From Terriglobia bacterium (GTDB lineage: Bacteria; Acidobacteriota; Terriglobia; JAIQFV01): a stretch of DNA of 32,087 nucleotides. The translations under genes and the position numbers were made by a program. Below the pieces are notes generated by a model. That model saw nothing but the letters and a program-made list of their open reading frames with translations. It was not told the DNA's origin and ran no database searches. Within the stretch, counting starts at the first letter, position 1. Each line of letters opens with the position of its first letter. This document shows, piece after piece, positions 18,587 to 32,087 of this stretch. The DNA lies in assembly GCA_028716525.1 (NCBI GenBank), contig JAQUPQ010000042.1, positions 1 to 32,087 on the forward strand. Direction: 5' to 3'.

Positions 18587-20872
18587 ATGGCCATACGAAA
18601 ACAAGACGCACTGAATTATCACGCGCTGGGGCGCCGCGGAAAAATTGAGGTGACTTCGAGCAAGCCGTGTCGAACGGCGTTTGACCTGTCTCTCGCTTAC
18701 ACGCCCGGCGTGGCGGAACCCTGTCGCGAGATTGAGAAAGATATCGAAAACGTTTATCGCTATACCGCCAAAGGAAATCTGGTGGCGGTGGTTTCCAACG
18801 GCACGGCCGTTCTAGGCTTGGGAGATATTGGCGCGGCTGCCGGCAAACCGGTGATGGAAGGCAAGGGCGTATTGTTCAAGAGATTCGCCGACATCGACGT
18901 GTTCGATCTCGAGCTCGACACCCACAATCCCGATGAAATTATCCGCACCGTGCAATTGTTGGAACCCACCTTTGGAGGAATCAACCTGGAGGACATCAAG
19001 GCGCCGGACTGCTTCTACATCGAAGAAACGCTCAAGAAAACCATGAACATTCCGGTCTTTCATGACGACCAGCACGGCACCGCCATCATCTCGGGCGCCG
19101 CCTTGATCAACGCCCTGGAATTGGTGGGCAAGGACATTTCAAAAGTCCGCGTGGTGTTCAACGGCGCGGGCGCAGCCGGCATCGCGTGCGCCAATCATTA
19201 CGTCCGGCTGGGAGTAAAGCGCGAAAACGTCACCCTGTGCGATTCTGTTGGCGTGATTTACAAGGGGCGCGAGAAAGGCATGAACCCCTACAAGGAACAA
19301 TACGCCCAGGAAACGCGCCTGCGAACGCTGGCGGAGGCGATGGTCGGGGCGGATGTATTCTGCGGAGTCTCGGTCGCCAATTGTGTGACCAAAGACATGG
19401 TTCGATCCATGAATTCCAACCCCGTTGTCTTTGCTATGGCCAATCCCGATCCGGAGATTACCTACGAAGACGCTAAATCCGCTCGCAGCGATCTGATCAT
19501 GGCCACCGGGCGCAGCGACTATCCCAACCAAGTGAATAATGTGCTGGGATTCCCGTTCATTTTCCGGGGCGCCCTGGATGTCCGGGCCAAAGCCATCACC
19601 GAAGAAATGAAGATCGCCGCCACGTACGCGCTGGCGCAACTGGCCAAGCAGGACGTCCCCGATACCGTCATGCGCGCTTACGGAGGTGAACGCTTCAAAT
19701 TTGGTCCTGATTATATTATTCCAAAACCGTTCGATCCCCGCGTCTTGGTCTGGGAAGCTTCCGCGGTCGCTAAAGCCGCCATGGACGGGGGCATCGCCGC
19801 CGAGCCGGTGAACCTGGAGGAATACAAGGAGCAGCTTGAGATGCGTCTGGGCCGCAGCCGCGAATTGATCCGGCACGTCGTTCAAAAAGCGCGCAAGGAT
19901 CCCAAACGCATTGTCTTTCCGGAGGGGGAAGAAGAAAAAATCCTCCGCGCCGCCAACATCCTGGTCGATGAAAACATCGCCCGACCGATTCTGTTGGGAA
20001 ACAGCGAAATCATCCAGGAGAAAATCAAACAACTGGATCTCTCATTGGAGGGCATCGAAGTCATTGATCCCGAGAAGTCTCCTCTGATGGAAAAATTTGT
20101 GATGGAATTCCATCACATGCGGCGGCGCAAAGGGGTCTCGGCCGTGGACGCCCGGGAATTTATGAAAAACCGAAACTACTTCGGCACCATGATGGTGCAC
20201 TTCCATGATTGCGACGGTCTCATTTCGGGACTTACCCAGCAATACCCCGAAACGATTCGGCCGGCACTTCAGATCCTGAAAACCAAGAGTGGAACCCATC
20301 GTGTTTCGGGACTTTATATTTTGATGACCAAGAAAGATACCTTCTTCTTTGCCGACACCACCGTCAATATCGATCCCACCCCCGATGAACTGGCCGAAAT
20401 TGCCATGGGCAGCGCCGAAGTGGCTCGGGCGTTTGATGTCGAACCCCGCATCGCCATGCTGTCGTTTTCGAACTTCGGATCCACCAATCATCCCTTTGCC
20501 GAGAAAGTGCGGGTGGCAACGGAGATTGTCAAACAGCTGATGCCCGATTTGATGATTGATGGAGAAATGCAGGCCGACACGGCGGTGGTTCCCGAAATCA
20601 TCAATGAGACCTATCCCTTCTCCACTCTCAAAGGGGGCGCCAACGTGCTGATCTTCCCGAATCTCGAAGCCGGGAACATTGCATATAAATTGATGATGCG
20701 GATTGGGGGAGCGGAAGCTGTGGGGCCCATCCTCATGGGAATTGGACGGCCGGTTCACGTTCTGCAGCATGGCGCAGAGGTTAACGATATCGTAAACATG
20801 ACGGCCATCGCCGTGGTGGACGCCCAACTCCTGGAAAAGCAAACCCGGGAAATGGCTGCGGCCAGCCACTAG
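18587..20872 (+). CDS. maeB: NADP-dependent malic enzyme with C-terminal phosphotransacetylase-like domain
   Basis: 761 residues, the usual size of the MaeB hybrid. Residues 1 to about 165 are the malic N-terminal domain ([43 protein letters not shown]). Residues about 165-410 are the nucleotide-binding domain ([18 protein letters not shown]). Residues about 430-755 are a PTA/PTB-like domain ([20 protein letters not shown], and the [14 protein letters not shown] region), which in this family is generally regulatory rather than catalytic. It converts malate to pyruvate and CO2 with NAD(P)+, supplying pyruvate and reductant. It is followed by a strong terminator. Confidence 0.95.
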
Positions 20873-21727: not shown

Positions 21728-22228
21728 ATGTCGAACCCGGAGTTGATGCATCCGACTGATGAACTAAAAAAGGAGCATGTCTCGGTACTTGAATTGCTAC
21801 GAGAAATTACGGCACTGACTGCCACAGAGCAGCTTTCCAGCGCGACCGAATGGGTGGATTCCTTCGATCGAGCTTGCATCTTTCTTCAGACCGACGTTGC
21901 TCGTCATTTTGAAAAGGAAGAAAAAGCCTTGTTTCCAGTATTAGCCAAGTATGTGGGAAATCAAACCGGTCCGGTGGCGGTCATGTTGCAGGAGCACGAG
22001 CAGCACCAGGCATTGCTTTCACAGTTATGTGCAGCGGTTCAATCCCGCGATTGGGGGTCTGTGCGTTCGGCCTGGAACCCCTTCGCCCAACTTTTGGGTC
22101 TGCACATCATGAAGGAAGACTCGGTTTTGTTCCCCATGGCGGAGCGACTAATGAATGCAGAGGAGCGGACCGAAGTACACAACAAGATGGAGGCCATCAA
22201 TCGCTCGATTGAGATACCGATGTCGTGA
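21728..22228 (+). CDS. Hemerythrin-like (HHE domain) protein
   Basis: 166 residues forming a four-helix bundle. Probable iron ligands sit in LKKEHVSVLELL, DVARHFEKEEKALFP, QEHEQHQALL and GLHIMKEDSVLFPMAE, the standard H...HxxxE...H...HxxxxD pattern. Hemerythrin-like proteins carry a di-iron site that binds oxygen or NO, or stores iron. A GGGAG ribosome site precedes the ATG. It stands directly ahead of the oxygen-sensitive benzoyl-CoA enzymes, and a second family member closes the block, which suggests oxygen protection or sensing; this is inference. Confidence 0.9.
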   Translation: MSNPELMHPTDELKKEHVSVLELLREITALTATEQLSSATEWVDSFDRACIFLQTDVARHFEKEEKALFPVLAKYVGNQTGPVAVMLQEHEQHQALLSQLCAAVQSRDWGSVRSAWNPFAQLLGLHIMKEDSVLFPMAERLMNAEERTEVHNKMEAINRSIEIPMS

Positions 22229-22353
22229 CTGCGGAAGCCGCCAAGCCCTTCCTCAAATCCCGGATCCCTGAAACGTATTCTCACATCGAGCTGATTTGTA
22301 CCCTTGCGCCTCCAGTTCGCCTTCATCGACAGACTTCACAACGGAGATTCAGA

Positions 22354-23307
22354 ATGACATTCTTTCAACCCAAGCCTGCTACGGATTTCAAATTCAAAGA
22401 CATCCTTTATGAGAAGAAGGACTGGGTCGCTCGTGTAACGCTCAATCGTCCGCAGGTCCATAACGCCTACAGTTCTCTGGCATTGCAAGAAATGTGCGCC
22501 GCGTTTCGAGACGCCTCCTGGGACGACCACGTGGCCGTGGTTGTACTGACAGGCGCCGGCGACAAAGCTTTTTGTACAGGCGGCGACGTGAGTGAGTACG
22601 CCGACAGTTACACCCAGCGTCCTCGGGATTATTGGAAATGGATGGGACTGTTTGTAGAGTGCCATGACGTGCTGCGCAACATCGGCAAACCCACCATTGC
22701 CCGGCTCAACGGCATGGTTGTGGGCGGGGGAAACGAGCTCAATATGGCGTGCGATCTGGCCGTTGCCGCCGACCATGTGGTAATTCGTCAGGTGGGAACC
22801 CGCGTCGGTTCGGTGGCGGCCGGTGGAGCCACTCAGTGGCTGCCCATTTTGATCGGGGATCGCCGCGCCCGCCAGATGTTGATGCTGTGCGAAGAGGTCA
22901 ATGCCCAAACGGCCCTCGCCTGGGGACTGGTCAACGAAGTCGTGCCTCTTGCCGAACTGGATGCCGCCGTCGACCGGCTATGCCAAAAACTTATCGACAA
23001 ATTTCCGGAATGCATGCGCTACACCAAGCAGCAAACCAACTTTTGGAAAGACCTGGCGTGGTCTTCCACCATCGGCCACGCTCGTGACTGGTTGGCGCTG
23101 CACTACACTTCCCTGGAACCCTACGAGGGAATGAAGGCCTTCGTTGAAAAGCGCAAAGTGGATTACCGCGGCCTGCGTCAAAAGGCAGCGGACGGAAAAT
23201 CCAGCGAATTTCTGTGGGGTCCCTACAGCAAGACGTGCCGGTCCTGTCAAGCCAAGGGCATTCCGAATGAATTTGAATTTTGCGGCAAGTGCGGATCGAA
23301 GCTCTAA
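22354..23307 (+). CDS. oah: 6-oxocyclohex-1-ene-1-carbonyl-CoA hydrolase-like protein with C-terminal zinc ribbon
   Basis: 317 residues from the ATG at 22354 (GGAG 7 bases upstream); 43 further codons upstream are not family-like. It is a crotonase-fold enzyme whose core follows the ring hydrolase Oah/BamA: TGAGDKAFCTGGDVSEYAD, NGMVVGGGNELNMACDLAVA, AAGGATQWLPILIG and LCQKLIDKFPECM. Oah opens the ring by adding water to the 6-oxo compound to give 3-hydroxypimelyl-CoA. It is shorter than the about 377-residue Thauera enzyme because a segment before the LDAAVDRLC helix is missing. The last 25 residues add a zinc-ribbon-like C-x2-C...C-x2-C tail (CRSC ... CGKC). The gene context supports the role, but a related crotonase is possible. 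Confidence 0.8.
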   Translation: MTFFQPKPATDFKFKDILYEKKDWVARVTLNRPQVHNAYSSLALQEMCAAFRDASWDDHVAVVVLTGAGDKAFCTGGDVSEYADSYTQRPRDYWKWMGLFVECHDVLRNIGKPTIARLNGMVVGGGNELNMACDLAVAADHVVIRQVGTRVGSVAAGGATQWLPILIGDRRARQMLMLCEEVNAQTALAWGLVNEVVPLAELDAAVDRLCQKLIDKFPECMRYTKQQTNFWKDLAWSSTIGHARDWLALHYTSLEPYEGMKAFVEKRKVDYRGLRQKAADGKSSEFLWGPYSKTCRSCQAKGIPNEFEFCGKCGSKL

Positions 23308-23379
23308 GGCCGCGAGCCACACACCCGGTCCGGCGCGTCAATAGGGGCGAAATCAGAGTCCTCGAGCGGGGGCAATTCG

Positions 23380-24156
23380 ATGACAACCATGGTTTCAAAA
23401 TATGCTGAATTAAGTTTTCGCGGCCACGTCGCTCAGCTCACGCTGAATCGCCCACCGCTGAACGTCATGAATCTCGAAATGATTCAGGAGATCAATACCG
23501 CCCTGGCGCATCTCCTTGCTGAGGATCGGTGCCAGGCCGTCCTTTTGCGGGGAGCGGGAAAGGCGTTCAGCGCCGGAGTGGATGTCGCGGATCATGTGCC
23601 CGAACGCACCGAATTAATGATCCAAACCTTCCACCGGACGTTTCATCTACTCAACGAGTTTGATGTTCCCACGATTGCCTCGGTGCACGGCATGGCACTG
23701 GGCGGGGGCTTCGAGTTGGCCACCTTCTGCGATTTTGTGATTGCCTCGCGCGAGGCCAAGCTGGGTCTACCCGAAATCAAGGTGGGAGTCTTTCCGCCGG
23801 TCGCTTGCGCCATCCTGACCCGCTTGTGCAATCCCCGCCGTGCCTTGGAACTCATCCTGACCGGGGAATCCATCTCCGGTGAAGAAGCCGAACGCATTGG
23901 ACTGGTCAACCGGGCGGTCGAGAGCGCCGAGCTCGATATTCAAACTTGGGCGTTTTTAGACCGCATCCTGGTCAACAGTAATGCCGTCGTGAAAATGGCG
24001 CGGAAGGCCATCCGCGCATCGCGAGGAAAACCCTTCGCCGGCAAGCTGGATGCCATCGAAGACATTTACCTGAACGAACTGATGAAACTGGAGGACGCCC
24101 AGGAAGGGTTAAACGCCTTCATGGAAAAACGACCTCCCGCGTGGAAGAATCGTTAG
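23380..24156 (+). CDS. dch: Cyclohexa-1,5-diene-1-carbonyl-CoA hydratase
   Basis: 258 residues with the crotonase fold. The Dch-like signatures are [36 protein letters not shown] and the second oxyanion region [20 protein letters not shown], followed by [16 protein letters not shown]. Dch hydrates the dienoyl-CoA product of benzoyl-CoA reductase to 6-hydroxycyclohex-1-ene-1-carbonyl-CoA. It lies between the hydrolase and dehydrogenase genes of the same pathway, which supports the specific assignment. A second ATG three codons in is possible. Its spacer of 72 bp from oah shows no terminator. Confidence 0.88.
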
Positions 24157-24194
24157 CCGCGTTTGATTGTGGCGCGAGGATCTTTTCTAAAATT

Positions 24195-25217
24195 ATGAAA
24201 GCAGCACTTTTTATCGGACCCCACCAACCTTTGAAGATGGACGTGTGGCCGGATCCGGCCATCGGTGACGAAGACGTTCTGGTGAAGGTGTCGGCCTGCG
24301 GGGTGTGTCATACGGATCTGCATTACATCGATCACGGCACTCCCACGTTCAAGAAACCTCCTCTGGTATTGGGACACGAGCCTTCCGGGATTGTGGCGGA
24401 GTGTGGCAGCCGCGTCGAAACATTCAAGAAAGGCGACCGGGTTTTGCTTCCCTCGGTTTATGGATGTGGCCGTTGCTTTTTTTGCCGTACCGGCCGCGAA
24501 AATATTTGCGAACAGATGGTGATGTTTGGAAACAACGTCGACGGCGCTTACGCGGAATTCATCAAAGCCCCGGCCAAAGACATCTTTCATCTGCCCGCGG
24601 AGATTCCTTTGGAAGAAGGTGCCATCATCGCCGACGCCTTGTCCACTCCTTATCACGCTGTCCGTAACCGGGCCGAAGTGAAAGCCGGCGATACCGTCGT
24701 GGTGCTTGGTTGCGGCGGGGTGGGCATCAACGTGGTTCAAATCGCGGCAGCGGTTGGCGGTTCCGTCATTGCGATCGACAAGATCCCGCAGAAACTGGAG
24801 TGGGCCAAAAAGCTGGGCGCATCGGCCACTCTGAATCCCGATGAGGTCGGCGACGTTGCCAAAGCCGTCCGAAAACTCACCGCCGGAGGAGCCGACATCG
24901 CCATCGAAGCCATCGGCAATCCCAAGACGATCGACCTGGCCTTTCAATGCGTCCGGACCGGAGGGCGTCTCGTGATCGTCGGTTATTCCGCCGAAAATGC
25001 CACGCTGTTTGCCAGCCGTGTGATGTACCGCGAAATGGAAATCCGCGGGTCGCTGGGATGTCGGCCGGTCGATTATCCCAAGCTCCTGGAACTCGTGCGA
25101 TTGGGAAAAGTGAAAGTGAAGGAGTTGGTAACACACAAATTTCCGTTGGAAGACATCAATACTGCGTTTGATTATCTTCGCCGCGGTGAATCGTTGCGTT
25201 CGGTGGTGATTCCATGA
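24195..25217 (+). CDS. had: 6-hydroxycyclohex-1-ene-1-carbonyl-CoA dehydrogenase
   Basis: 340 residues from the ATG at 24195; an earlier in-frame start overlaps the dch end and adds non-family sequence. It is a zinc-dependent medium-chain dehydrogenase: catalytic zinc motif C-GV-C-HTD, GHEPSG, the structural-zinc cysteines in [16 protein letters not shown], and the NAD-binding motif [15 protein letters not shown]. Had oxidizes the 6-hydroxy group formed by Dch to the 6-oxo substrate of Oah with NAD+. Family likeness plus position between dch and bcrC makes this assignment firm, although sequence alone would only show an alcohol dehydrogenase of this type. Confidence 0.9.
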
Positions 25218-25262
25218 GGTGCCATCTTCGGAGCGCGACCGGGTCCTTTCTTTCTTAAACAC

Positions 25263-26444
25263 ATGACACGATTGAGACCGACGGTCGCTGAGATCGTCGA
25301 ACAAACTCTGGCCTTGTACGAGGACTTGGATTTCAGCTATGTCCGCGCCTGGAAATCCAAGTCGACCTCACGCCGTGCGGTGGGATTCATGCCGGTCTAT
25401 ATGCCGCGTGAAATCATCCATGCTGCCGGCATGTTGCCCGTGGGTGTCATGGGAGGAGGAGATCGGCTCGACATTATCAAAGGCGACGCGTATTTCCAAT
25501 CCTATCTCTGTCACATTCCCCGCAGCACCATCGAACTGGCGCTCTCCCATCGCTTGGACAGCCTCGACGGCATGGTCTTTCCTTCCATCTGCGACGTCAT
25601 CCGCAATCTTTCCGGGATGTGGAAGCTGTTATTTCCGGAGAAAATGGCGCGGTATCTCGATTTCCCGCAAAATTTTGACCCCGCGCTGGGCGGCAGATTC
25701 TATCGCCAGGAATTGGAGTCCTTGCGTTCCGCTCTGAGTGAGCTGAATGCCTTGCCTCCTCAAGATTCGGCGCTCACACACTCCATCTGCCTGTTCAACA
25801 AGAACCGCCGTCTGGTGAAAGCACTCTACGACCTGCGCGCCTCCAAACCCTGGCTCGTGCCCACCTACGAAGCCTACCTCTTGTTGAGGGCTGGAAATAT
25901 TTTGGACGTGGAAGAGCACACCCAATTGCTTGAAGACTATCTCGTGCGCGTGGAGTCGGAGCCTCGCAAGCCCATGGACAATATCCGCGTCATCGTGGTG
26001 GGCTCGTTTTGCGAACAGCCGCCGCTGGGATTGATTCTGACTCTGGAACGTGCCGGTTGTTATATCGTCGATGACGATTTTGTTCTGGCATCCCGATGGA
26101 TCACCGCCGATATATCGAAGACGGGGGATCCCCTGGAGGCGCTGGTCGAGGCGTATTTGAAAAACAGCACGTTTCACTCCTCCAAGTTTGAAGGTTCGAC
26201 ACCCAAATGGCGGCACCTGATTGAACAGGTGAAAGCGCGCCAGGCCGATGGCGTCGTCTTTGCTGCGCCCAGCTTTTGCGATCCCGCCTTGCTGGATCAA
26301 CCGCAATACGAAAAGGGATTGGAAGAAGCCGGGATTGCGCACACCACATTCAAGTATGCCGAGAACACCGGGCAGTTCCAAAACATTCGTGAACAAATCG
26401 GTACCTTTTCAGACTCCTTAAAACTTTGGAGTGAAGCCCCATGA
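25263..26444 (+). CDS. bcrC: Benzoyl-CoA reductase subunit C
   Basis: 393 residues. The N-terminal TLALYEDLDFSYVRAWK, FMPVYMPREIIHAAGMLPVG, and the C-HIPRSTIELALSHRLD-like region match BcrC/BadD. Likely [4Fe-4S] ligands are in YLCHIPRS, PSICDVIRNLSG, and later VGSFCEQPP and APSFCDP. BcrC and BcrB form the module where the ring is reduced; electrons come from the BcrA/BcrD ATPase module. The reaction is benzoyl-CoA + 2 reduced ferredoxin + 2 ATP to the 1,5-diene. The stop overlaps the bcrB start by ATGA, so translation is coupled. Extra N-terminal residues (MTRLRPTVAEIVEQ) are normal for the family. Confidence 0.93.
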   Translation: MTRLRPTVAEIVEQTLALYEDLDFSYVRAWKSKSTSRRAVGFMPVYMPREIIHAAGMLPVGVMGGGDRLDIIKGDAYFQSYLCHIPRSTIELALSHRLDSLDGMVFPSICDVIRNLSGMWKLLFPEKMARYLDFPQNFDPALGGRFYRQELESLRSALSELNALPPQDSALTHSICLFNKNRRLVKALYDLRASKPWLVPTYEAYLLLRAGNILDVEEHTQLLEDYLVRVESEPRKPMDNIRVIVVGSFCEQPPLGLILTLERAGCYIVDDDFVLASRWITADISKTGDPLEALVEAYLKNSTFHSSKFEGSTPKWRHLIEQVKARQADGVVFAAPSFCDPALLDQPQYEKGLEEAGIAHTTFKYAENTGQFQNIREQIGTFSDSLKLWSEAP

Positions 26445-27742
26445 CCACCCCTCCGGCTGCCCGCCCTCCCGAGATACACAAGGAGCCCAGCATGCTCCTG
26501 CAAAAAAACATGCTGGCCGACTACTTCACCCGGGTATCCAAAGCTCGCGAAGAAGGAAAGAAAATCGCCTACACCTTCGTTCCCGGAAATTTGACGGAGT
26601 TGCTTCACGCCTTTGACGTGGTGCCGGTCTATCCCGAAATCAATGCCCTGCAGAACGGCATGCGAAAGCGCAGCGCCAAGTTCATTTTGGACGCGGAGAA
26701 AATCGGGCACTCCGAGGATGTTTGCACCTACGTCAAAGCCGACCTGGGAATGTTGTTGAACGGCAACGTCGGCCCTACCGGAGAAATCATCCCGGAGCCC
26801 GACATTCTCTTGCTTTCATACACGGGTTGTTTCACGTTTATGAAATGGTTTGAGATATTGAAGCAGCATTATCCCAAGGCCGAAGTGGTGATGCTGCAGG
26901 TGCCGTATCAGGGCGAAGGCACGCCCACTCCGGCCATGCGCGAATACATCGTCCGGCAGCTTCGCGAAAGCGTCATTCCGGCATTCGAGAGAATTTCCGG
27001 GCATCGCTTCGAAGAGGATCGATTGCGTGAGCAACTGCGCCGCTCCGCCGAGGCCGAAGAGGGCCTGGTGTTTGCGCTGCAGTCGGCGCGCCGGCGGCCG
27101 TCACCCATCGACGCCTATTTCGGCGGGGTGTATTACATCGGCCCGATGTTCACGGCCTTTCGCGGAACCCCGGAATGTGTGGACTACTACGACACCTTGC
27201 GGGAAGAAATTCAAAACCGCATCGATGCCCATGCCGGACCCATCACGCCCGAGGGTCCCATGGCCGAAGAAAAATATCGCCTGATCGTTGAAGGCCCGCC
27301 CAACTGGACTCATTTTCGGGAATTCTGGAAGCTTTTCTACGACGAAGGCGCTGTCGTGGTGGCCTCCACTTACACCAAGGTGGGGGGATTGTATGACCAG
27401 GGTTTCCGTCACAACCCCGACGATCCGCTGGGCACCTTGGCGGATTATTGCATGGGCTGCTACACCAATCTCAATCTGCCGACTCGTGTGGAGTTGATCG
27501 AAAAGTACATTCGAGACTTCGAGGCGGATGGGTTCCTGATCAACTCCATCAAGAGCTGCAATTCGTTTTCTTCAGGCCAACTTCTGATTTTGAGAGAACT
27601 GGAGCGCCGGACCGGAAAGCCCGGAGGGTTTTTTGAGAGTGACTTGGTGGACCCGCGATATTTTTCTGCGGCCAACATAAAAAATCGGTTGGAATCCTAT
27701 CTTCAAATGTTAGATCAACGACGGTCGCAAGCGGTGGCATGA
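26441..27742 (+). CDS. bcrB: Benzoyl-CoA reductase subunit B
   Basis: 433 residues, about the length of Thauera BcrB. Conserved regions are AYTFVPGNLTELLHAFDVVP, LLSYTGCFTFMKWFEILKQH, FGGVYYIGPMFTAFRGTPE, and a C-terminal group of probable cluster ligands in YCMGCYTNLNLP and KSCNSFSSGQLL. It is related to 2-hydroxyacyl-CoA dehydratase D subunits and partners with BcrC. It is the start of a coupled set: the ATG overlaps the bcrC stop, and bcrA begins 9 bases after its own stop with GAGGAG before it. An internal ATG at 26491 is less likely because it lacks the overlap. Confidence 0.94.
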   Translation: MTTPPAARPPEIHKEPSMLLQKNMLADYFTRVSKAREEGKKIAYTFVPGNLTELLHAFDVVPVYPEINALQNGMRKRSAKFILDAEKIGHSEDVCTYVKADLGMLLNGNVGPTGEIIPEPDILLLSYTGCFTFMKWFEILKQHYPKAEVVMLQVPYQGEGTPTPAMREYIVRQLRESVIPAFERISGHRFEEDRLREQLRRSAEAEEGLVFALQSARRRPSPIDAYFGGVYYIGPMFTAFRGTPECVDYYDTLREEIQNRIDAHAGPITPEGPMAEEKYRLIVEGPPNWTHFREFWKLFYDEGAVVVASTYTKVGGLYDQGFRHNPDDPLGTLADYCMGCYTNLNLPTRVELIEKYIRDFEADGFLINSIKSCNSFSSGQLLILRELERRTGKPGGFFESDLVDPRYFSAANIKNRLESYLQMLDQRRSQAVA

Positions 27743-27751
27743 GGAGCGCCC

Positions 27752-29071
27752 ATGGGCTATACCTTAGGAATTGATTTGGGATCGACCACCACCAAGGCCA
27801 TCCTGTTGGACGCCAACGATCGCATTGTCGGCCGGGGGCTTACCAATACGCGCAGCAATTACGAGGTGGCCACCGCCGTTGCGGAGAGCGAAGCGAAGAT
27901 CAACGCGCACTTTACCTTTCTCAAAGAGGCCGTGGATTCATCTCCGAAGCTTTCCTCCCAGGCCGCGCCTCTCCTGAACAATTTGGAGAATCGCTTTCAC
28001 CTGGTCCAGCATCTTCATCGGGTGAATCGACTGCGGCGACAGTGTCTTTTTGAGGCCGCCGCCGATCGCCTTCTTCCCCATCAACCTCGACTCACAACGG
28101 TCCTGAATGCCCTCTTCGATCAGATTCATGAGCGTGCCGAACGCAGTTTTTCGACGGCCGACGTGGATCGGTCGCGCTTCTTCCGCGATATTGTCGGCAG
28201 TGAGTACATGGCCCTGGCGGAAGAGCAGTCCCGGGAGAGTTCCATCGCTCTGGATCTCCTGATGGGACTGTACGACAAATCGATTCTCGTTGAAGAGAAC
28301 CAGGTTCTTGATTTGAGCTTCGTGGAAGCCATTCAACAAGCCGTGGAAGCGGCAGGAGAAAGCGAGACGCTGACGCGTGTTCAACAGAAAGCGCTTCGTG
28401 AGGTGGTCGAAGAGGCCGCCTCTCAGACTCTTGAAGTCGACAACATGGTGGGGACCGGATATGGACGCCAGCGGCTCCCGTTTCGAAAAGATCAGATTCG
28501 ATCCGAGATTCTATGCCATGGCCTCGGAGCCCACTATTTCTTCCCGGGAACACGCACCGTCCTGGACATCGGGGGTCAGGACACCAAAGCCATCCAGGTC
28601 GATTCGCAGGGAATCGTAACTTCATTTCAGATGAACGACCGATGCGCCGCAGGTTGCGGTCGTTATCTGGGATACATTGCCGACGAATTGAATCTCGGCC
28701 TGCATCAACTGGGGCCGCTGGCTCTTCAGGCCAAGCGACCGGTGCGCATCACCTCCACCTGCACGGTGTTTGCGGGCGCGGAATTGCGCGAGCGGTTGAG
28801 CATGGGTGATGCACGCGAAGACATTCTGGACGGTCTCCACCGCGCCATCATTCTTCGCGCCATGTCGCTGCTGGCCCGGTCGGGCGGCATCACCGATGAG
28901 TTTACTTTCACCGGCGGGGTCGCCAAAAACCCGGCGGCCGTCCGGGCGTTGACCCGCTTGGTGGAAGAAAATTACGGAACTATGAAAATCAACATTCATC
29001 CGGACTCCATTTTTACGGGAGCCGTCGGGGCGGCCTTGTATGCCCGACACACCCAGGGAGGCATTGCATGA
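27752..29071 (+). CDS. bcrA: Benzoyl-CoA reductase subunit A (ATPase)
   Basis: 439 residues, in line with Thauera BcrA. It is an ASKHA-fold ATPase of the BcrA/BadF type. The N-terminal phosphate loop is GIDLGSTTTKAILLDAN, followed by a helical insertion (about 40-230), then MVGTGYGRQRLPF, VLDIGGQDTKAIQVD, C298 in DRCAAGCGRYLG and C337 in TSTCTVFAGAELRE; these cysteines help form the [4Fe-4S] cluster shared with BcrD. The FTGGVAKNPA segment binds adenosine. It uses ATP to lower the potential of electrons from ferredoxin. The ATG of bcrD overlaps its stop. Confidence 0.94.
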   Translation: MGYTLGIDLGSTTTKAILLDANDRIVGRGLTNTRSNYEVATAVAESEAKINAHFTFLKEAVDSSPKLSSQAAPLLNNLENRFHLVQHLHRVNRLRRQCLFEAAADRLLPHQPRLTTVLNALFDQIHERAERSFSTADVDRSRFFRDIVGSEYMALAEEQSRESSIALDLLMGLYDKSILVEENQVLDLSFVEAIQQAVEAAGESETLTRVQQKALREVVEEAASQTLEVDNMVGTGYGRQRLPFRKDQIRSEILCHGLGAHYFFPGTRTVLDIGGQDTKAIQVDSQGIVTSFQMNDRCAAGCGRYLGYIADELNLGLHQLGPLALQAKRPVRITSTCTVFAGAELRERLSMGDAREDILDGLHRAIILRAMSLLARSGGITDEFTFTGGVAKNPAAVRALTRLVEENYGTMKINIHPDSIFTGAVGAALYARHTQGGIA

Positions 29072-29895
29072 TCCTGACTGCAGGCATCGATGTGGGCGCC
29101 AGTTCCGTGAAGATCGCCGTCCTGGAATATGGGACAAAAAACGCGGGATCACCCCACCGGGCGATTTACCTGGCCGGCGAGCGCTTTCACAAACGAGATC
29201 CGAAACTGGTCATCCGCGGCTGTTTCGAGTCGGCGCTCCGGGCCTGCGACCTGTCGGAAGACGATTTCGCTTACATCGCGTCCACCGGAGAAGGCGATTT
29301 GATTTCATTTCGGCGCGGACACTTTTATGGCATGACGACGCATGCGCGGGGCGCTCAATTTCTCTTTCCCAGCACCCGTTCGGTGCTCGATATCGGCGCG
29401 CTTCACGCCCGGGCCATGCGCGTTGACGAGCGATCCAAAGTTCTGCAGTACCAAATGACGGGACAATGCGCCTCCGGGTCGGGTCAGTTCTTGGAGAATA
29501 TTGCCCGCTATCTGGGCGTCGGACTGGAAGAAGTCGGACCGCTCTCCATGAGGGCGAGACGACCCGAGATCGTTTCCGGGATATGCGCGGTGCTGGCGGA
29601 AACCGACGTCATCAACATGGTTTCACGAGGCGTGGAGACCGCCGACATTCTCAGAGGAATCCATGAATCCATCGGGGGGCGGCTGGTGCGTCTTCTGCGG
29701 GCGATCAAAGCCGAATCCCCCGTCACCATCACGGGCGGATTGGCACGTGACACCGGCTTGATGGCTGTCCTTCGTGAAAAACTCAGCTCCGAAGGGACAC
29801 CCCTGGAAATCCAAACGCATGACCATTCGGCCCTGGCCGGCGCCCTAGGCGCTGCTTTGTGGGCCGGGTTTCGACATGAAAGGCTGGCCGCATGA
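29068..29895 (+). CDS. bcrD: Benzoyl-CoA reductase subunit D (ATPase)
   Basis: 275 residues, the short ASKHA-type partner of BcrA. Features are the N-terminal loop AGIDVGASSVKIAVLE, IASTGEGDLISF, RSVLDIGALHARAMRVD, C134 in GQCASGSGQFLENIA, C173 in GICAVLAETDVI, and TITGGLARDTGL. The two cysteines are the expected ligands of the cluster bridged with BcrA. In the usual motif the VLDIGGQD of BcrA reads VLDIGALH here, so some nucleotide-site residues differ between the two subunits, as known for BcrA/BcrD pairs. Overlaps both bcrA and the next gene by ATGA. Confidence 0.93.
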   Translation: MILTAGIDVGASSVKIAVLEYGTKNAGSPHRAIYLAGERFHKRDPKLVIRGCFESALRACDLSEDDFAYIASTGEGDLISFRRGHFYGMTTHARGAQFLFPSTRSVLDIGALHARAMRVDERSKVLQYQMTGQCASGSGQFLENIARYLGVGLEEVGPLSMRARRPEIVSGICAVLAETDVINMVSRGVETADILRGIHESIGGRLVRLLRAIKAESPVTITGGLARDTGLMAVLREKLSSEGTPLEIQTHDHSALAGALGAALWAGFRHERLAA

Positions 29896-31089: not shown

Positions 31090-31177
31090 TGGTGCGGGGG
31101 AAGGGACTTGAACCCTCACGCCCTTTTGGGGCTTGAGATTTTAAGTCTCATGCGTCTGCCGATTCCGCCACCCCCGC
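31090..31177 (-). tRNA. tRNA-Leu (anticodon UAA)
   Basis: Read on the minus strand, the acceptor stem GCGGGGG pairs with CCCCCGC at the 3' end, followed by discriminator A and an encoded CCA. The anticodon arm is TGAGA - CTTAAAA - TCTCA, giving TAA. A long variable arm and the GGTTCAAGTCC T arm are present, as expected for leucine tRNA. Confidence 0.95.
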
Positions 31178-31193
31178 CTTCGATGGTGGCACG

Positions 31194-31223
31194 AATATAC
31201 TCGCACGACGCAATAAAAGGCAA
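31194..31223 (-). promoter_or_regulatory. Sigma-70 promoter for tRNA-Leu
   Basis: On the minus strand, TTGCCT (31218-31223) and TATATT (31194-31199) are 18 bases apart. The start would be about 10 bases ahead of the mature tRNA 5' end. Confidence 0.6.
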
Positions 31224-31247
31224 ATGCCCTTATCCCACTAAACTCGA

Positions 31248-31275
31248 AGGTCGCAGTTCTTTGAGACTGCGACCT
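31248..31275 (-). terminator. Hairpin behind the methyltransferase gene
   Basis: AGGTCGCAGT and ACTGCGACCT form a perfect 10-bp stem with an 8-base loop, 27 bp behind the minus-strand stop at 31302. Only a weak T-run follows (TTT a few bases on), so it may be a weak terminator or just a leader hairpin ahead of the tRNA. Confidence 0.4.
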
Positions 31276-31301
31276 CCAGGCGCTCTCGTTATCCTGTTCC
31301 T

Positions 31302-31844
31302 CTACCAAAGGCCGCGGAAAAGCCGATAGGGAGTCTTCTTCCGATATTCCAAATAATCACCTCCCCGGGCCTCAATCATTTGACGTTCCTCCACAGGAAT
31401 GAACGCAATAAATGTCGCTCCAATTAATCCGGCCCAAAGCAACTGCCCGGCGTTGGGATGGAAGATCATGGAGCAAAGGCCCGTGAAAATGGCAGCGCGG
31501 TACATCGGATGGCGCACACGGGCATAAGACCCTTCGGTGAACAGAGGCGTCTCGGGTCCATGGCTATGGGAAATGGTGGCGCCGGGGACTCCCAACAACC
31601 CGTCAATCATGGGAAAAGTGACGCCTTCAAAGAAAGCCACAATGGACAGGATGAATCCCAGCATTCCCATAAACCTCAGCCATTCGGGAACTACGACAAC
31701 CGGGCCCGGAATGGGGCGATGATAAACAAACACCAGGATCCAAGTGAGAACGCTGATCGTAATGTAAACCTGGCGTTCCCCGATCGATCCGGCGGCACTT
31801 CCCCACACGGCCTTCTTGAACCAGCTCCTCGTCATCACCAAGTG
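31302..31844 (-). CDS. Isoprenylcysteine/NnrU-type methyltransferase, 5' truncated
   Basis: About 180 residues of a multi-span membrane protein. Matches to the phospholipid/isoprenylcysteine methyltransferase family are SYARVRHPMYRAAIF, the FIPVEERQMIEARGGDYLEYRKKTPYRLF ending, and two to four hydrophobic segments. The first recognisable residues, HLVMTRSWFKK, correspond to the family's internal QHSVMARPWFK motif, so the N-terminal membrane segments are missing. The frame runs on past 31844 but only into the antisense of another gene. An ATG at 31835 exists without a ribosome site. It is cut by the junction at about 31845. Confidence 0.7.
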   Translation of the reverse strand, partial: HLVMTRSWFKKAVWGSAAGSIGERQVYITISVLTWILVFVYHRPIPGPVVVVPEWLRFMGMLGFILSIVAFFEGVTFPMIDGLLGVPGATISHSHGPETPLFTEGSYARVRHPMYRAAIFTGLCSMIFHPNAGQLLWAGLIGATFIAFIPVEERQMIEARGGDYLEYRKKTPYRLFRGLW

Positions 31845-31845
31845 C

Positions 31846-32087
31846 GGGATATCTGAAATTTTGAAAATTGCTGCAGACCATTTTAAGACCATAAAAGTAA
31901 TTGCAACTGGCTCTTCAACTCTTTCGGCTAAACAAAAATTTCGAGATACTCTAACAGGTAGGAAAACCGAATTATTATTAACTCCTTTAAATAGCATAGA
32001 TTTGCTTGATTTAAAAGCATATGATTTGGAAAAACGAATGCTGCATGGAGGCTTACCTGAGTTTTATCTTTCAGAAAAACCAGATGA
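31846..32087 (+). CDS. AAA-family ATPase of the DUF4143 type, internal fragment
   Basis: 80 codons open to the window end with no start codon. The translation contains EILKIAADHF, VIATGSSTLSAKQKFRDTLT, GRKTELLLTP and LHGGLPEFYLSEKP, matching the middle of ATPases with a C-terminal DUF4143 domain. The Walker A part and about 100 N-terminal residues are absent. GC content is about 34 percent (76 of 227 bases counted from 31861), against about 55 percent next door. It is either a piece of a foreign genome joined in assembly or an acquired gene fragment. Confidence 0.7.

Follow-up and report, generated by a model that had tools for sequence, protein, structure and literature searches.

Chimeric contigs are documented in metagenome assemblies (PMC11261854), and Illumina libraries are documented to contain chimeric reads, whose frequency varies with the amplification method (PMC3312816); neither article tests the join described here. 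This join lies in the window, by which we mean the whole stretch of DNA that was analysed: all 32,087 bp (positions 1-32087) of Terriglobia bacterium contig JAQUPQ010000042.1, here called C42, from a 104-contig assembly totalling 4,196,486 bp (GCA_028716525.1). Near the right end of the window, a membrane methyltransferase gene meets a fragment of an AAA_14-family ATPase gene. The window being a complete contig, this junction amounts to an overhang of 237 bp at its terminus. We hold with high confidence that the end is chimeric: the native sequence appears to stop at 31850, and the genome to continue on another contig of the same assembly, C56, which carries a ribonucleotide reductase gene (assigned by Pfam) that we take to be nrdJ.

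How closely does C42 resemble a chimeric metagenome contig end? Unrelated sequences are joined without apparent homology, both genes are cut, base composition changes in a step, the join lies 237 bases inward from the terminus, and the native continuation is found on a different contig. No differing feature was seen, the case being known here from assembled sequence. An earlier note on this DNA had put a chimeric contig end first among its explanations, and that choice is supported by the continuation on C56, the gene order in two independent genomes, the absence of the foreign tail elsewhere in the genome and a join at which no shared base is apparent. The features concerned are the following.

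31090-31177, minus strand: tRNA-Leu (anticodon TAA), the synteny anchor; near nrdJ in both same-family genomes.
31302-31850, minus strand: native part of the membrane methyltransferase gene; it comprises codons 49-231 of the joined gene, counting the stop codon.
31611-31850, unstranded: C42/C56 overlap of 240 bp, corresponding to C56 19767-19528; 235 of 240 bases identical, 5 synonymous differences.
31850-31851, unstranded: the join; native sequence through 31850, foreign sequence most likely from 31851.
31851-32087, plus strand: foreign tail of 237 bp, 32.9% GC; AAA_14 ATPase fragment, beginning inside the domain and cut off by the contig end.

The position of the join follows from the comparison of the two contigs. 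When they are aligned base by base, C56 and C42 agree up to 31850 (235 of 240 positions) and are unrelated from 31851 onwards. The earlier note had both genes cut at 31844/31846, with a minus-strand methyltransferase losing its N-terminus at 31844 and a plus-strand AAA-ATPase fragment starting in mid-domain at 31846. Both genes are indeed cut: the remainder of the methyltransferase lies on C56, and the ATPase fragment covers positions 77-124 of the 129 in the Pfam AAA_14 profile (PF13173). The coordinates need correction, since the methyltransferase is native up to 31850 and the tail starts at 31851, which places the true join about 5 bases to the right. The sharp fall in GC content that had been noticed there (from about 55 to about 34%) was measured as 52.6% in the inward kilobase versus 32.9% in the last 237 bp. 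By chance, the minus-strand frame extends without a stop codon into the tail as far as an ATG at 31997 (231 aa), so the truncation is not seen as a broken reading frame.

Do the two sides share any sequence at the join? We compared the tail with AAA homologues, namely the best 80 of 130 relatives found in a genome contig scan. In an ungapped upstream reading, the residue encoded by 31849-31851 is Pro in 80/80 homologues, versus ATA (Ile) in the window. Position 31850 is a T, while Pro (CCN) needs a C, and the foreign part therefore most likely starts at 31851; local alignments with the homologues begin at 31852 in 79/80. Thus no base is apparent as common to both sides of the join. This bears on one rival explanation, an assembler error by way of a repeat or k-mer common to two genomes, which we regard as extremely improbable: with no common base apparent at 31850/31851 (in a comparison made without the donor sequence), there is no repeat for the assembly graph to cross. 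For the same reason, the join was probably present in the sequenced molecule rather than produced by an assembler crossing a repeat.

The true continuation of the native side is located in the same assembly. A search of the organism's own genome with positions 31200-31870 returned a second place, C56 19528-19767, the exact right end of that 19,767-bp contig. All five differences between C42 and C56 over this overlap are synonymous, and none of 80 residues differs, as is expected for strains of one species. C56 also holds the start of the methyltransferase gene, in an open frame at 19384-19767 (128 codons) of which the first 48 codons lie beyond the join. The frame joined across both contigs reads on to a stop and encodes 230 residues. 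Against the NCBIfam profile NF045656 (methanethiol S-methyltransferase MddA), the joined protein scores 55.9 bits, versus 44.8 for the C42 frame read through into the tail, and it aligns to profile positions 47-234 of 238. These scores do not make the protein an MddA. At 55.9 bits it is far under the curated cut-off of 270 for NF045656, and it is therefore only a distant relative; its match to NF040696 is likewise under the curated cut-off, as are its matches to Pfam PEMT and ICMT. The native gene thus bears a distant resemblance to MddA/isoprenylcysteine-type membrane methyltransferases. In a class-wide search (200 genomes, own included), 22 of 84 matches begin at or before residue 40 and thus cross the join, at 24-33% identity, a count tallied by eye among the matches listed with the own genome excluded. 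They lend weak further support to the methyltransferase joined from C42 and C56. The alignment of C42 itself in that search happens to begin at residue 42 too, which is seven residues beyond the join.

Gene order in two same-family genomes (G001 and G002) points in the same direction. On C56, the same strand carries, before the methyltransferase, the ribonucleotide reductase gene and then genes of 314, 734 and 379 aa, the latter two presumably encoding a membrane pyrophosphatase and mnmA, respectively. The C56 genes, including those upstream of nrdJ, occur in the same order in both relatives, at 65-86% identity. The window has a single tRNA gene, tRNA-Leu(TAA), with the C56-overlapping end of C42 on one side and the remainder of that contig on the other; in the joined contigs it points the same way as nrdJ. 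Both same-family genomes found (2/2) have a tRNA-Leu(TAA) gene that comes about 0.4 kb after the downstream end of nrdJ and is oriented like it; it is the only tRNA gene in the 19.9-kb stretch fetched from each. From its position near nrdJ in both relatives, C42-C56 is most likely the ancestral and native order, with the methyltransferase gene placed between the two anchors and interrupted by the tail. The methyltransferase itself has no match in either genome (E up to 0.001), so it cannot be used for synteny. Queries with the C42 acetyltransferase and BadF-type ATPase gave only weak or unlinked matches in the two genomes, and neither 19.9-kb stretch contains a match to the hemerythrin, acetyltransferase, BadF-type ATPase, methyltransferase or tail protein. 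As no C42 protein gene that was tried was found in those stretches, the synteny argument has just one anchor on C42, the tRNA-Leu gene.

The tail, by comparison, looks foreign. The GC step at the end of C42 is the largest drop among 208 contig ends, and none of 9,461 overlapping 237-bp windows of the own genome, sampled from 778 kb (about 19%) of it, is as low in GC as the tail. Together with its presence in one place only within the own genome, this composition marks the tail as foreign. Set against the AAA_14 family, it is only a fragment, lacking everything ahead of the join; this includes an Asp-Glu pair that 80/80 homologues have and that we take to be Walker B-like. In 41 genomes (own and 40 relatives, E up to 0.001), the tail protein was found only on its own contig and in one relative, at 38% identity.

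Could the tail be a real insertion in part of the population? A minority strain may have been truly rearranged inside the methyltransferase gene, either by insertion of a low-GC island or by a deletion joining foreign DNA, with C42 as the left boundary in that strain and C56 as the uninterrupted strain. We consider this very unlikely. Such an insertion would likewise give one contig that enters foreign DNA and one that does not; the last 240 native bases of C42 are a distinct allele (5 differences), and 26 inexact facing overlaps between contig ends suggest a mixed population. tRNA genes are common integration sites, and one lies about 0.7 kb away, but the join is not at the tRNA gene. The tail moreover begins in the middle of a domain of a gene and has no second copy in the genome. 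A mobile-element insertion could be examined on one side and over 237 bp only, a view that also limits the case for rearrangement. Over that length, 15 pattern matches to the tail protein in viral contigs yielded no confirmed hit, and plasmid and phage collections gave no match (E up to 1e-5). We judge as equally doubtful the specific form of this rearrangement in which a minority strain of the species has recently gained a low-GC island, joined without homology and interrupting the methyltransferase gene that lies between nrdJ and tRNA-Leu.

We favour a chimeric contig end instead, with the 237-bp tail most likely an ordinary assembly or library artefact and no biological feature. The genome most likely runs from C42 31850 into C56, through the N-terminus of the methyltransferase and then nrdJ. 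Strain variants in the population probably kept the two contigs from being merged, and the final stretch in its C42 version runs into a dead-end tip of 237 bp made of foreign, AT-rich DNA. What is observed is that the contigs overlap, that C56 continues the native side with synteny in two relatives, and that the tail has an unusual base composition; the origin of the join is inferred. Two unrelated fragments were probably ligated or amplified together in library preparation, and the chimeric molecule probably survived in the assembly as a blind tip of a strain branch with low coverage.

How exceptional is this end within its assembly? We counted overlaps between contig ends (E up to 1e-4 and an identity of 90% or more, taking the longest alignment for each pair), leaving out parallel matches and matches between the ends of one contig. 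Among facing end pairs, 47 overlap terminus to terminus (within 10 bases), 6 have a one-sided overhang and 4 are neither. The 47 clean overlaps comprise 18 exact ones of 127 bp, 3 other exact ones and 26 inexact ones; five of the 47 measure merely 25-54 bp and may be due to chance. Of the 26 inexact pairs, 16 were measured for exact runs, and one more was passed over because it had more than 60 position mismatches; 11 of the 16 show an uninterrupted run of exactly 126 identical bases counted from one terminus. Such 126-base runs would fit strain-variant breaks in a de Bruijn assembly with k=127. C42/C56 is one of the six overhang pairs (240 bp at 97.9%, with a 237-bp overhang), and its overhang is the longest and most AT-rich of the six. 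The overhangs at the right end of C5 and the left end of C22 recur elsewhere in the genome, and that at the left end of C76 does so in 132 of its 226 bases.

Several points weigh against a chimeric end. The evidence comes from the assembled sequence. No donor of the tail was found: the best 80 of 130 relatives come from many phyla and their identity to the tail does not exceed 66%, so none of them is the donor. That no base is shared at the join assumes that the tail's own gene retains the Pro of its homologues. Both the assembler and k=127 were deduced from overlap lengths, and the exact run of C42/C56 from the C56 terminus measures 81 bases, not 126. This break therefore departs from the commonest pattern, and the end of C56 may be due to a third variant or to some other cause. 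Finally, the overhangs at the left end of C1 (126 bp) and the right end of C7 (70 bp) are likewise found nowhere else in the genome, so the C42 end is extreme, not unique in kind.

For curation, and for curation only, the consequences are simple. The last 237 bp of C42 should be set aside, the ATPase fragment should be counted neither as a gene of this organism nor as a transfer event, and the two contigs C42 and C56 can be set next to each other.

Three further contig ends merit description. The overhangs at the left end of C1 (L116 1-126; 40% GC) and the right end of C7 (L202 1931-2000; 43% GC) may be similar tips; both are unmatched in the genome apart from exact overlaps with other contig ends. 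At the opposite end of the window, a base-by-base comparison shows that positions 1-117 overlap the left end of C4 with a single mismatch; the length of this inexact overlap, 117 bases, falls 10 below the usual 127. C42 (32,087 bp) also precedes C43 (32,096 bp) in the assembly, the only break in descending-size order among the 104 contigs, by 9 bases. Trimming at the chimeric end and the loss of about 10 bases at the left end would explain this list position equally well, the latter being plausible because the overlap with C4 is 117 and not 127 bases.

Further inward, window positions 22225-29892 hold a row of genes: two of the enoyl-CoA hydratase family, one for a zinc dehydrogenase, two that are 2-hydroxyglutaryl-CoA dehydratase D-component-like and two for BadF/BcrA-type ATPases. 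This row has the appearance of a cluster for anaerobic aromatic or acyl-CoA degradation, presumably of the benzoyl-CoA reductase type.
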